The notes under the pieces are model-generated. The model was not told where the DNA came from and did not search any database. It saw only the letters and a list, made by a program, of their open reading frames with translations. DNA of 64,000 nucleotides, taken from NCBI RefSeq assembly GCF_003726095.1, contig NZ_CP026031.1:4156001-4220000 (forward strand), written 5' to 3'. Positions 2,762 to 61,188 of this stretch are shown piece after piece. Source of the stretch: Niallia circulans (GTDB lineage: Bacteria > Bacillota > Bacilli > Bacillales > Cytobacillaceae). Position numbers and translations under genes: made by a program. Numbering within the stretch: the first letter of the stretch is position 1; every line of letters starts with the position of its first letter.

Positions 2762-4158
2762 GAAGGTTTTTCCAATCATTATTGGCGAAGTACATGATGA
2801 TTATTTTAATAGCCATTTTTCTTGTTCAATTCGCATTCCTAGTTGTCACAATATTTGTGTCTGGTGTTGCAGAAAACATGGAAAGTGGAAGTCAATCCCA
2901 ATATAGGAATGATTTCAATGAAATAGAGACAAAGTGGCATGCTGAAGCAAACAATTTGAAAAACGTCACGCCTGAAACAATTGAACAGCATTTTTCCAAG
3001 TGGAAAAATCAATTTCACGATGCCTCTATGTTTTGGGTTGATGAAAATGGTAAGTTAGGAAAGCAAGTAAATGTAAGAGAACAACTTCCTTCCGAATGGT
3101 CATCTGTTTTTACAGCAAAATTTATCAAAGGTCGATATGAAGGGGACCCCTTTACGGTTATTGCCTTTGTTGGAAAGGAAGAATCTCGAGGCTTTATAGT
3201 TTTTGAGATTCCTAGAACTGCGTTAAAATCTCCGCTTGAAAAAGCAAATGATAATTATGGCACGATATTATTAGTCGGTGTTATCTGTATCATCTTCTTA
3301 TTTATTATAGCTTCCTTTTTATTTTTTAGAGGCATCAGAAAACGATTATTACAATTACAAGATGCGATGGAGATACGGGATGTTGACGGTTTGCCAATCC
3401 AGATTAACGTAAAAAAGCAGGATGAAATTGGACAACTTGAAAAAACGTTTAATCAAATGGTATTTGAACTCAAGGAAAGTAAACAACGTGAACAGAAAGA
3501 AGAACAAATACGGCGGGAATTAATTGCTAATCTTTCTCATGACTTACGGACACCTTTAACTAAAATAAGAGCTCAAACCTATTCAATTGCTAAAGAAGAT
3601 TTATCAGAAGAGGGTACAAAAGCAATAAAGGCGTTGGAAGCCTCGGTAGTGAATATTGATAGGTTAATGGAAAATTTGATGTCATATACTCTACTAATGG
3701 CTAGTAAATATAAAGTTGATTGGAAGGATATAGATGTTATTCGTTATGTGCGTGAATGTTTAGCTTTATGGTACCCGGTTTTTGAAAAAGAGGGATTTGA
3801 AATAGAAGTTAAATTACTCCCGTTTAAAAATAGTAAATGGACGGTTGATCCAATTTGGTTAGGACGTATATTAGATAATTTATTACAAAATGTATTGCGT
3901 CACGCTAAAAGTGGAAGATATATTTGTGTGAAAACGGAATCCACAGATCAATATGATGCTATAGTTGTTTCAGATAAAGGAAAAGGGATGAAGGGTATTT
4001 CAAATGAAGCAGGTGCAGGAATTGGTTTGTCTATTGTTGATATGATGGTGAAAGGTATGGAGTTATATTGGGAAATTAAGTCAAGTGAACATGGAACAAC
4101 AATAAAAATAATAAAAAAAAGAGACTCAAGTAAAGATAGATTGGAAAAGGTCATTTAG
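2758..4158 (+). CDS. Two-component sensor histidine kinase
   Basis: 466-residue membrane kinase. TM1 spans about 12-36, an extracytoplasmic sensor of roughly 130 residues follows, then TM2 about 168-190 and HAMP to about 243. The dimerisation box has phospho-acceptor H261 in NLSHDLRTPLTK. The ATPase domain shows an N box (ILDNLLQNVLRHA, 371-383), a short G1 (VSDKGKG) and G2 (GAGIGLSIV). The large extracellular loop differs from the loop-less BceS type, so it may sense its ligand directly. Translationally coupled to the response regulator (ATGA overlap). Confidence 0.92.
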   Translation: MRRFFQSLLAKYMMIILIAIFLVQFAFLVVTIFVSGVAENMESGSQSQYRNDFNEIETKWHAEANNLKNVTPETIEQHFSKWKNQFHDASMFWVDENGKLGKQVNVREQLPSEWSSVFTAKFIKGRYEGDPFTVIAFVGKEESRGFIVFEIPRTALKSPLEKANDNYGTILLVGVICIIFLFIIASFLFFRGIRKRLLQLQDAMEIRDVDGLPIQINVKKQDEIGQLEKTFNQMVFELKESKQREQKEEQIRRELIANLSHDLRTPLTKIRAQTYSIAKEDLSEEGTKAIKALEASVVNIDRLMENLMSYTLLMASKYKVDWKDIDVIRYVRECLALWYPVFEKEGFEIEVKLLPFKNSKWTVDPIWLGRILDNLLQNVLRHAKSGRYICVKTESTDQYDAIVVSDKGKGMKGISNEAGAGIGLSIVDMMVKGMELYWEIKSSEHGTTIKIIKKRDSSKDRLEKVI

Positions 4159-18014: not shown

Positions 18015-18194
18015 CCGAATTCCGTTTAGATTTTTCCTAATCGTTTGTATGAAAAAAGCGTAAATATGCGTCATGATTAGAAAAAGGAAGAAGAAGAACG
18101 AGAATAGGTTCTTACTGCTTATTATTGCGCTAATTTTGTCCGAAATGGCTCTTTACAAATCTATATACAGAGGAGTAAGATACAAAAAAATAAG

Positions 18195-18335
18195 TATATC
18201 GCTGAATCCTCAACTAGAGGAACGGGGGACCCAATTTTTTGTGATAAAACACTTGGGGTGAATCCTTTTTGTAAAAGGTAGGGTTATTCTTAGACCCGAA
18301 TCCGACTGCTAACTTCGTAAGCGTTTAAAGAAGGA
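18195..18335 (+). promoter_or_regulatory. c-di-AMP (ydaO-yuaA) riboswitch aptamer
   Basis: The conserved ydaO segments appear in order: CGCTGAATCC, AGAGGAACGGGGGACCCAA, CTTGGGGTGAATCC, GTAGGGTTATTC, AGACCCGAATCCGAC and TGCTAACTTCGTAAGCG. A terminator follows at 18372 and then a KtrB-type potassium transporter gene. This is the known ydaO arrangement, in which c-di-AMP turns K+ import off. Confidence 0.92.
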
Positions 18336-18371
18336 GAATCGATACTTGTGTTCATGGATGGAAGATTAATG

Positions 18372-28580: not shown

Positions 28581-28610
28581 CAGCAGAAAACAGAAGAATT
28601 GCCCCTCTAC
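28581..28610. repeat. Dispersed GAGGGAC-family repeat (diverged half copy)
   Basis: Contains AACAGAAGAATTGCCCCTCT, a diverged version of the arm at 27625. It lies directly ahead of the hflX promoter and may supply part of it. Confidence 0.4.
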
Positions 28611-28629
28611 TTCCCATTTATGGTATAAT
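28599..28629 (+). promoter_or_regulatory. Promoter of the hflX leader
   Basis: -10 TATAAT at 28624-28629 with a weak -35 (TTGCCC, 28599-28604, spacer 19). Transcription would start near 28636, giving a leader of about 345 nt before hflX. Confidence 0.5.
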
Positions 28630-28663
28630 AATGTTAATTAGATGAATGGAGGGTTGCTTTAAG

Positions 28664-28699
28664 ATGTGGAATTCTATCTCGATTGTATACTTTATGTAA
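28664..28699 (+). CDS. 11-residue leader ORF in the hflX 5' region
   Basis: ATG at 28664 reads MWNSISIVYFM then TAA. GGAGGG at 28648-28653 is an excellent ribosome binding site. It lies upstream of a terminator/antiterminator switch, the layout of ribosome-mediated attenuators of antibiotic-response genes. Coding role inferred from position and initiation signal. Confidence 0.6.
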   Translation: MWNSISIVYFM

Positions 28700-28726
28700 C
28701 TAATTTTATAGTACTTAAAGGCTCTG

Positions 28727-28958
28727 CCTGTGTGTAGAGTAATCGGGATTAGTTTGCCTATTTTTAAAAGCAACCTTTCATTAACGTTATTTATAATGAT
28801 GTGGTGTAAAAGGGGAGAATTATGCTCTCTTTTTATTAAAATGGAATAATATTTTCTTTAGAAACCCATTTTAGGCTTAGGGTTTACTTTAAATAAATAC
28901 TATTCCTCTTTCTTATTCCGATTGCTTCACACACAGGTGACCACCTGTGTGTTTTTTT
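28727..28958 (+). promoter_or_regulatory. hflX transcription attenuator (antiterminator and terminator)
   Basis: The terminator stem CACACAGGT (28930-28938) / ACCTGTGTG (28943-28951) is followed by seven T. CCTGTGTGT at 28727-28735, just after the leader ORF, is identical to the terminator's 3' arm and can pair perfectly (9 bp) with ACACACAGG at 28929-28937, which would prevent the terminator. That upstream strand sits in the loop of a small CTCT/AGAG hairpin (28722-28739). A further 10-bp hairpin (28808-28817 with 28825-28834) lies between. Confidence 0.75.
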
Positions 28959-28981
28959 ATGAACAGAATGGAGGAACAGGA

Positions 28982-30238
28982 ATGGAAGGAAAACAAAAAG
29001 CGATAGTAGTAGGCGTTCATTATGATCAGAAAGAAGACTTTGCTAATTCAATGGAAGAGCTAATTCAATTGGCAGAAGCTTGTGATATAGAAGTAGTGGG
29101 AGAGATAACGCAGAAGTTGGATCGGGTTCATTCTGCACACTATATTGGGAAAGGGAAACTGCAGGAGTTAACTGCATTGCTTGCGGAGAAGGACGTACAG
29201 GCTGTTCTTTTCAATGATGAGCTGTCTCCTTCCCAAGTTCGTAATTTAGAGGAAGCAACAGATTGCCGAATCATTGACAGGACAGTATTGATTTTAGATA
29301 TATTTGCTCAAAGAGCGAAGACAAAAGAAGCGATGCTCCAAGTTGAAATCGCAAAATTGCAATATATGCTGCCTCGATTAGCTGGTTTAGGAGAATCACT
29401 AGGTCGTCAGGGAGGAGGATCTGGCCTTATAAATAGAGGGTCAGGGGAAACGAAGCTTGAATTGGATCGAAGACGGATTGAAGACAGAATTAGTCGCTTG
29501 CATAAAGAATTAGATACGCTTGTGGTCCAACGTAAAAACCAGCGAAAGATGCGAAAAAAGAAAGAGTTGCCAAGTATTGCACTCGTTGGCTATACGAATG
29601 CTGGGAAGTCGACTTTAATGAATGTGCTGCTTGAAAAATATCATGCTGCAACAGAGAAAATGGTGTTTGAAAAGAATATGCTCTTCGCAACCCTTGAAAC
29701 ATCAGTGCGCAATATTACATTACCAAATAATAAATCCTTTTTATTAACAGATACAGTTGGGTTTATTAGTAAATTACCGCACCAATTAGTAAAAGCATTC
29801 AGGTCGACCTTGGAGGAAGTGGCGGAAGCTGATTTGCTTATTCATGTCGTTGACTACTCTAATCCAAATTATCAAGAGCAAATCAATGTGACTAATAAGA
29901 CTTTAAAAGAACTTAACGCGGAAAATATCCCAGCTATCTATGCTTTTAATAAGATAGATTTAGCAGCAGGAGATACATCGATGGCAGGAACAGATGGAGT
30001 TTACCTTTCCGCTAAAAAGCAAATAGGAATAAATGAACTAGTGGAAGCTATTTCTAAAAATGTCTTTAAGCAGTATATTTCCTGTGAAATGACTATCCCG
30101 TATGATAAAGGGAATGTACTATCCTATTTGACGGAAAAGGCAAATATCCTTTCAACAGAATATAAGGAAGAAGGCATATTCCTATCCATCGAATGCAAAG
30201 AAGAAGACTATAATCGTTATCGAGAATATGTAATATAA
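28982..30238 (+). CDS. hflX: Ribosome-associated GTPase HflX
   Basis: 418-residue GTPase that splits or rescues stalled ribosomes; some Firmicute homologues confer macrolide/lincosamide resistance. An N-terminal glycine-rich HflX domain (GGGSGLINRGSGETKLELD) and coiled coil precede the G domain: G1 GYTNAGKS (203-210), G3 DTVGF, G4 NKID, G5 SAKK. Start 28982 behind GGAGG is preferred; the ORF to 28922 would run through the terminator hairpin. Expression is probably controlled by the upstream attenuator. Confidence 0.93.
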   Translation: MEGKQKAIVVGVHYDQKEDFANSMEELIQLAEACDIEVVGEITQKLDRVHSAHYIGKGKLQELTALLAEKDVQAVLFNDELSPSQVRNLEEATDCRIIDRTVLILDIFAQRAKTKEAMLQVEIAKLQYMLPRLAGLGESLGRQGGGSGLINRGSGETKLELDRRRIEDRISRLHKELDTLVVQRKNQRKMRKKKELPSIALVGYTNAGKSTLMNVLLEKYHAATEKMVFEKNMLFATLETSVRNITLPNNKSFLLTDTVGFISKLPHQLVKAFRSTLEEVAEADLLIHVVDYSNPNYQEQINVTNKTLKELNAENIPAIYAFNKIDLAAGDTSMAGTDGVYLSAKKQIGINELVEAISKNVFKQYISCEMTIPYDKGNVLSYLTEKANILSTEYKEEGIFLSIECKEEDYNRYREYVI

Positions 30239-61048: not shown

Positions 61049-61064
61049 TTAGAAAATAACGATG

Positions 61065-61167
61065 CCTATCAAGAGAGATGGAGGGAATTGGCCGAAGAAA
61101 AGTCTGGCAACCTGCTGAATGCAAGGTGCTAAATCCAACAAAATGGATACCCATTTTGAAAGATAGG
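61065..61167 (+). promoter_or_regulatory. S-box (SAM-I) riboswitch aptamer
   Basis: Classic S-box phrases in order: CCTATCAAGAGAGATGGAGG, GGAATTGGCCGAAGAAA, GTCTGGCAACCTG, CAAGGTGCTAAATCC, GAAAGATAGG. P1 is formed by 61065-61070 with 61162-61167. SAM binding should shut off the downstream sulfur genes. Confidence 0.96.
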
Positions 61168-61188
61168 GGAAGGAATAAATACTCAACT

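Follow-up and report, generated by a model that had tools for sequence, protein, structure and literature searches.

Organization of the hflXr locus and its leader

The window, i.e., the whole analysed stretch of 64,000 nt, carries on its forward strand a gene for an HflX-type protein of 418 aa (28982..30238), which is preceded by the Shine-Dalgarno (SD) sequence GGAGGA at 28970..28975. This protein is the second HflX of the genome and is 48% identical to the other copy, located at 1.13 Mb. A tree of 45 proteins was midpoint-rooted, its proteins being labelled by us as HflXr or other HflX on the basis of their matches, with no Listeria sequence included by name. In this tree, the 21 HflXr-type proteins and the 24 other HflX proteins were fully separated (support of 1.0 and 0.889). 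The window protein was found on the HflXr side, and its TIGR03156 score was 454.2 bits (cut-off of 216.75); it was accordingly assigned to HflXr. Within HflXr, the Niallia proteins were grouped with four clostridial proteins with support of 0.997, and the gene was detected at E ≤ 1e-120 in 5 of the 13 genomes of the genus. Together, these two findings suggest that the gene was gained horizontally. The nesting of Niallia HflXr among clostridial HflXr (loci L036, L037, L039 and L040) suggests horizontal movement of the gene together with its leader.

The leader extends over approximately 345 nt, from a putative transcription start at about 28636 to the hflXr ATG at 28982, and all of its elements lie on the forward strand. 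The promoter (28599..28629) consists of TTGCCC at 28599-28604, a spacer of 19 nt and an extended -10 region, TGGTATAAT, in which TATAAT at 28624-28629 is preceded by TGG. It was absent from the list produced by a consensus scan, which accepts only spacers of 16-18 nt. The ATGGTATAATAA of this promoter is also present in the Niallia leaders L005-L007. The leader ORF encodes MWNSISIVYFM (28664..28699) and has an ATG at 28664 and a UAA stop (TAA at 28697-28699). Its SD, GGAGGG (28648-28653), belongs to a segment (28648..28663) that is also the 5' strand of the outer hairpin P1; in the MFE fold, it pairs with the P1 3' strand at 28766..28779, which was further supported by strand swaps and by masking in the folding model. 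Strand 1 (28674..28685) lies within the codons of the leader ORF and forms, with strand 2 (28726..28749), the anti-antiterminator helix PAAT. The hairpin P3 (28722..28739) holds most of CCTGTGTGT in its loop, and a conserved core described by the covariance model R1 extends over 28682..28770.

Downstream of the core, a weak terminator, T1 (28810..28834; -6.5 kcal/mol), is followed by strand 3 (28915..28927), which was supported by strand swaps, and by the terminator T2 (28929..28958; -14.7 kcal/mol), whose stem of 10 pairs at 28929-28952 precedes a U run. CCTGTGTGT at 28727-28735 is identical to the T2 3' arm and exactly complementary to 28929-28937. The region 28637-28960 was predicted to fold at -96 kcal/mol, as compared with -64.3 kcal/mol (sd 4.8) for 100 shuffles, none of which was as stable (z of -6.55).

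The sequence-only reading of this DNA had described a leader of this length with an 11-codon ORF and a strong SD, as well as the identity of CCTGTGTGT with the terminator 3' arm and its perfect pairing with 28929-28937, and all of this can be read directly in the sequence. Its further statement that CCTGTGTGT is displayed in a hairpin loop holds if four P3 pairs are counted; with six pairs counted, CCTGTGTGT occupies the loop plus three arm bases.

When the leader was scanned against Rfam 15, no family was found above chance, and the best sub-threshold match (E of 0.2) was taken as chance. Elsewhere in the window, a c-di-AMP riboswitch and a SAM riboswitch were matched at the gathering thresholds (18190-18338 and 61063-61169).

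Competing pairings and their conservation

Strand 2 is complementary both to strand 1, within the ORF codons, and to strand 3, so that these pairings compete. The antiterminator comprises 23 bp, formed by 28726-28735 with 28929-28938 (10 pairs) and by 28737-28749 with 28915-28927 (13 pairs). Its energy of -36.0 kcal/mol was not reached when the partner strand was shuffled 200 times, nor with any of 28 foreign strands in either direction. As a comparison set, 28 terminator-like hairpins were collected by a script from both strands of the window. The duplex of T2 with its own upstream 300 nt was the strongest among them (-37.1 kcal/mol; next, -24.7; median, -16.7), and an exact upstream complement of at least 9 nt was present for three of the 28, T2 included.

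Conservation was studied at 86 loci whose HflX proteins match that of the window at 42-100% identity. The core was present within 6 mismatches at 49 of them and absent from 37, which means that 37 of the 86 related HflX loci have no such leader. After removal of three near-duplicates (L004, L033 and L034, with 5, 5 and 0 differences from their respective neighbours) and of two weak matches (L009 and L070), 44 leaders were kept. Own strands were compared with strands of other families in 5000 group permutations, for which 11 groups with the 32 leaders that have a recognised T2 were used in the case of the antiterminator, and 18 groups with all 44 leaders in the case of PAAT and P1. The number of permutations as good as the own strands was 0 for the antiterminator (1 for its inner and 27 for its outer helix), 1 for PAAT and 0 for P1. 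One of the 11 groups, f30, was an exception, pairing better with foreign partners than with its own. Single leaders were often equalled by foreign strands, for example by 23 of 29 in L036, L040 and L047. Shuffles as good as the native strand, out of 200, numbered 13 in L048, 14 in L050, 5 in L036 and 0-4 in the remaining leaders.

Column covariation was modest. In the inner helix, 73.8% of positions were paired, as against 70.2% in row shuffles (reached by 3 of 300); the corresponding values were 76.5% and 75.7% for the outer helix (28 of 300) and 75.1% and 72.5% for PAAT (7 of 300). RNAalifold applied to the 44 leaders predicted P3 alone, with 6 pairs, of which 3 were changed on both sides, and the helices were therefore assessed by strand swaps and counts. 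The helix of strands 1 and 2 was retained in Niallia even though both strands differ from those of the relatives. The mutual exclusion of terminator and antiterminator proposed in the sequence-only reading was thus recovered by computation and found to be coupled to a strand of the leader ORF, column covariation being modest.

T1-like hairpins were assigned in 22 of the 44 leaders, although two of them (L048 and L050) are probably T2. Opening of T1 by the P1 3' strand (AT1) was considered and rejected: 205 of 5000 permutations were as good, and Niallia fell below the foreign strands. In L098, L100, L105 and L107, no terminator other than one of the T1 type was detected, which may point to a more compact form of the attenuator. 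The stretch AUUUUUA at 28760-28766, 3' of strand 2, was more conserved in the 44 aligned leaders than the pairings account for; one guess is that it serves as an RNA polymerase pause.

Predicted response to a ribosome on the leader ORF

The switch was modelled by equilibrium folding with a crude ribosome mask. In the free RNA of the window leader, the predicted probability of T2 was 0.97 and that of the antiterminator was 0.00. With a ribosome on the start codon, these values became 0.01 and 0.98, respectively, and a ribosome at codon 7 yielded an antiterminator probability of 0.61. When 36 blocks of 32 nt were masked in turn, a near-complete flip was predicted for six blocks only, three within 28637-28684 (SD and early ORF) and three within 28749-28796 (P1 3' strand and its surroundings). 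Three further blocks over the ORF produced partial flips (28661-28692, 0.13; 28669-28700, 0.59; 28677-28708, 0.25), so that, within this model, a ribosome arrested near the end of the ORF would trigger the switch only poorly.

Eighteen leaders, chosen by us from the 32 with a recognised T2, were modelled in the same way, with the start codons of the other leaders assumed to lie at a constant distance from the SD. Clean switching was predicted for 10 of them with the region from the SD to codon 7 covered, for 9 with a ribosome at the start and for 7 with a ribosome at codon 7. The Niallia leaders L006 and L007 were predicted to be antiterminated even as free RNA, L058 was mixed when free, and L008, L048, L082, L089 and L092 flipped poorly.

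Distribution of the R1 element

The covariance model R1 of the core was built from 37 of the 44 leaders and covers 88 positions. A search with this model detected 121 places in 102 of the 299 genomes of the order. The window core, which could be aligned with those of the 43 other leaders as a homologous RNA, scored 92.9 bits (E of 5e-18 in 64 kb), the window being one of the 37 training rows. Another match in the window, at 3956-4043 (23.4 bits; E of 0.022), falls within a kinase-like gene and was regarded as a chance match.

The genes downstream of R1 encode macrolide 2'-phosphotransferase-like proteins (Mph, 29 places), HflXr (26), ABC-F proteins (25), Mef-like MFS transporters (19), RlmA-II-like methyltransferases (7), Erm (6), LmrB-like MFS transporters (2) and other proteins (5, namely, two short-chain dehydrogenases, one OsmF-like, one RbsA-like and one unassigned); at 2 places, there was no ORF. 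Known or likely classes of macrolide-lincosamide-type resistance thus stand at 114 of the 119 places with a downstream ORF, the classes resting on BLAST clusters. Sixteen downstream proteins and the window HflXr were scanned against NCBIfam: the Mph, Mef and RlmA representatives were under the curated cut-offs and those of Erm and HflX over them, and the LmrB-like representative was under the LmrB cut-off and over that for DHA2 efflux. Two of the three scanned ABC-F proteins exceeded the Msr cut-off, and the third exceeded the general ABC-F cut-off.

Leader ORFs with an R/K-x-R/K arrest motif were present at 107 of the 121 places, as compared with 32% for shuffled leader peptides. Among the 26 HflXr leaders found with R1, 25 have this motif, and the exception is that of the window. 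The antiterminator strand and a T2-like terminator were also detected outside HflXr. For each leader, up to three terminators were tried and the best was retained; on this basis, an antiterminator duplex that beat all 40 shuffles was found in 62 of 112 leaders: 21 of 25 for ABC-F, 17 of 25 for HflXr, 9 of 28 for Mph, 5 of 7 for RlmA, 5 of 16 for Mef, 3 of 6 for Erm, 1 of 2 for LmrB-like and 1 of 3 for other genes.

A second R1 copy is present in the genome of the window (L142, G000:C1:5003865-5003949). Its leader peptide is MTASMRLRFPHFIVN, and it precedes a Mef-like frame of 191 aa, which is apparently truncated, since two scanned relatives have 402 and 414 aa. Phages were searched with the leader of this second copy and plasmids with the window leader, and neither search yielded a match. 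In L230 and L244, R1 is located before short-chain dehydrogenases and lacks an R/K-x-R/K leader ORF; L043 is an HflXr-type leader with an RIR leader ORF (by eye) and no recognisable core.

The Niallia leader peptide

An R/K-x-R/K motif was found in 40 of the 44 aligned leaders, the exceptions being the four distinct Niallia leaders. These encode MWNSISI(V/L)YFM-UAA, with MWNSISILYFM in L005, L006 and L007; accordingly, a single V/L change occurs in 11 codons across four species, and the SD, start and stop are intact in all of them. Because the peptide has no R/K-x-R/K, the inducing drug cannot be read from the sequence.

From the SD to the core, the four leaders differ at 1-3 of 119 positions, whereas the 100 nt ending 40 nt upstream of the SD are 46-78% identical among them. 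This difference argues for strong constraint, which may serve the peptide or the RNA. A short, SD-bearing leader ORF ahead of the terminator is kept in all four, and the conservation of the ORF and paired strands in related genomes, on which the sequence-only reading had made its proposal depend, was observed, although not at 37 of the 86 related HflX loci.

The distance from the ATG to the shared TGTAACTAA is 31 nt in the window and 33 nt in L039. Owing to these two missing nucleotides, the Niallia peptide is read in a different frame. The neighbouring frame reads ...SR(L/F)YTLCN, which resembles the ends of the relatives' peptides, and no ATG, GTG or TTG was found in it between its upstream stop and TGTAACTAA.

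The Niallia peptide bears some likeness to arrest peptides of other classes. ISIV/ISIL recalls IAVV, the named motif of erm(A) L1 according to the accessible part of PMC12698558, and may be regarded as a lead. The end I-(V/L)-Y-F-M-UAA is close to Y-L-I-F-M-UAA of MsrDL, whose peptide MYLIFM is described as stalling at its UAA stop (PMC10314930, accessible part); the two peptides differ in length (11 and 6 residues), and the likeness may be due to chance.

Relation to known attenuators

The closest description was found for uORFC-6-1, a candidate motif from a survey of 26 bacterial genomes, with 51 representatives, mainly from Bacillales, that is located upstream of hflX and contains a uORF with Arg-Leu-Arg. 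It has an RNA structure with covariation downstream of the uORF start, and its authors propose an influence of stalled ribosomes on transcription (PMC8632094, accessible text). The window element fits this motif by description in its hflX target, its uORF and the downstream structure, but the conserved Arg-Leu-Arg is absent from MWNSISIVYFM. The accessible account of uORFC-6-1 names hflX as the main target and gives no terminator/antiterminator model (PMC8632094). The sequence-only reading had called the window leader unrelated-looking, and this has to be corrected, since the leader is a member of a widespread element that agrees with uORFC-6-1 as described.

For hflXr/rli80 of Listeria, attenuation with alternative terminator and antiterminator and a 14-aa RLR leader ORF is supported by experiments, and lincomycin induces transcription more than erythromycin, as far as the accessible part of the paper goes (PMC6310831). 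Compared by description, the two systems share a second hflX, alternative terminator and antiterminator structures and a short leader ORF, which in the window has 11 codons and no RLR.

Leader peptides printed in the accessible parts of PMC4335068 and PMC10314930 include MTHAMRLRFPTLNQ (ErmK), MTHSMRLRFPTLNQ (ErmD) and MTASMRLR (MefE). Among the R1 leaders, MTHSMRLRFPTLNQ is encoded in L140, MTHAMRLRFPTLNQ in L165, L166 and L195, and MTASMRLR forms the N-terminus of several. Judging by these peptides, R1 appears to be homologous as an RNA to the ermK/ermD and mef(E) leaders. The authors of PMC4335068 state, in the text accessible, that the mef(E) and erm(K) leaders have no homology beyond the peptide. 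As in the window, two adjacent terminators are described for erm(K) (PMC4335068 and PMC10314930, accessible parts), but the target genes and peptides of ermK/ermD and mef(E) are different. In Bacillus subtilis tlrB (yxjB), the accessible account describes stalling on the leader peptide MIIQFIRYR with attenuation of both transcription and translation (PMC6851288). There, the ribosome, once stalled, directly obstructs the base of the terminator, whereas seven RlmA-II-like genes found here carry R1 instead. For the short uORFs of CplR and VmlR, stalling is thought to occur after initiation with little context, although for VmlR an influence of the uORF sequence on induction by lincomycin is reported (PMC10201436, accessible part).

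In a literature search outside which most subscription papers and the original ermK/ermD papers lay, no account of one homologous RNA before these gene types was found. Likewise, neither the long antiterminator model nor the motif-less Niallia variant was found described in this search, which covered few subscription papers.

Probable mechanism and alternative explanations

The computation yielded the parts of the switch, showed that their pairings exclude one another and that they are conserved, and predicted the flip; on these grounds, it is highly probable that this element is a ribosome-mediated transcription attenuator of hflXr. In the absence of drug, ribosomes would translate the 11-codon leader and leave, and the P1/PAAT/P3 fold would lock strand 2 away. 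T2, and the weak T1, would then form, and transcription in the cell would stop before hflXr. An antibiotic that stalls a ribosome at the start or early leader codons would leave the SD strand and strand 1 covered. The freed strand 2 would form the 23-bp duplex with strand 3 and the T2 5' arm, T2 would be blocked, and readthrough would allow HflXr to be made, probably for recycling of stalled ribosomes.

A narrower version of this mechanism is a serious contender, though we stop short of calling it probable: the peptide would be irrelevant, and in Niallia only drugs that trap initiation (lincosamides, pleuromutilins and streptogramin A) would switch the gene on. The absence of R/K-x-R/K from the four distinct Niallia leaders agrees with this version, as do the strongest flip in the model, predicted with the ribosome at the start codon, the stronger induction of Listeria hflXr by lincomycin than by erythromycin in the accessible text of PMC6310831, and the post-initiation, nearly context-free stalling considered for CplR and VmlR in that of PMC10201436. 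However, the same source reports an effect of the VmlR uORF sequence on lincomycin induction, and the peptide is kept in four species with one V/L change, which RNA pairing alone could nevertheless explain. We give a lower probability, on the unlikely side, to the reading that Niallia kept the RNA switch of a shared cassette serving at least six resistance gene types and, through the frame change, swapped Arg-x-Arg for another arrest peptide, so that the drugs to which hflXr responds were retuned. The replacement might lie in the IAVV-like ISIV/ISIL body or in the MsrDL-like FM-UAA at the stop. It is improbable that the motif was simply lost through a frame slip, leaving a decayed sensor and a gene now fixed on or off. 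Such decay would account for the frame offset, for the relatives-like ending in a startless neighbouring frame and for the predicted ON fold of free L006 and L007, but not for the 1-3 differences in 119 nt in four species with far more divergent upstream regions, the strand 1/strand 2 helix kept despite changes in both strands, or the SD, start and stop intact in four of four leaders.

Ordinary tandem terminators, with the pairings as by-products and hflXr expressed constitutively at a low level, would also place two terminators in an intergenic stretch, and hairpins resembling terminators are frequent, with 28 in the window. This explanation is very improbable, given that a promoter follows the upstream gene, that the upstream duplex of T2 exceeds the next strongest of the 28 by 12 kcal/mol, that own strands beat foreign ones at the group level and that homologous leaders carry ORFs with arrest motifs. 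Still less credence is given to a ligand-binding riboswitch or a protein-binding leader in place of a ribosome sensor. The core is more strongly conserved than pairing fully explains, as such a leader would lead one to expect; against it, no Rfam 15 family was found above chance, an SD-preceded ORF with an arrest motif occurs at 107 of 121 places, and the targets are mostly of ribosome-drug resistance types.

The element is very probably, as far as these models go, a conserved, ribosome-mediated transcription attenuator of hflXr. This mechanism, which had been put forward from the letters of the stretch, is now supported by conserved parts, by HflXr leaders of other families and by constrained folding. 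The earlier observation was correct, yet understated: the pairing extends over 23 bp instead of 9, and the weak T1, the pairing of the ORF strand with strand 2 and the second hflX copy lay beyond it. The leader itself appears to be of a known attenuator kind, with an altered sensor peptide that would set it apart from its family.

From the distribution of R1, it seems that a single conserved RNA, placed before six gene classes within one order, underlies attenuators which had been described separately. The sensor appears to persist or move independently of the resistance mechanism that it controls. Niallia provides a natural experiment in which the RNA and the gene stay while the peptide changes, and in which the contribution of the peptide to drug specificity may be told apart from that of the RNA.
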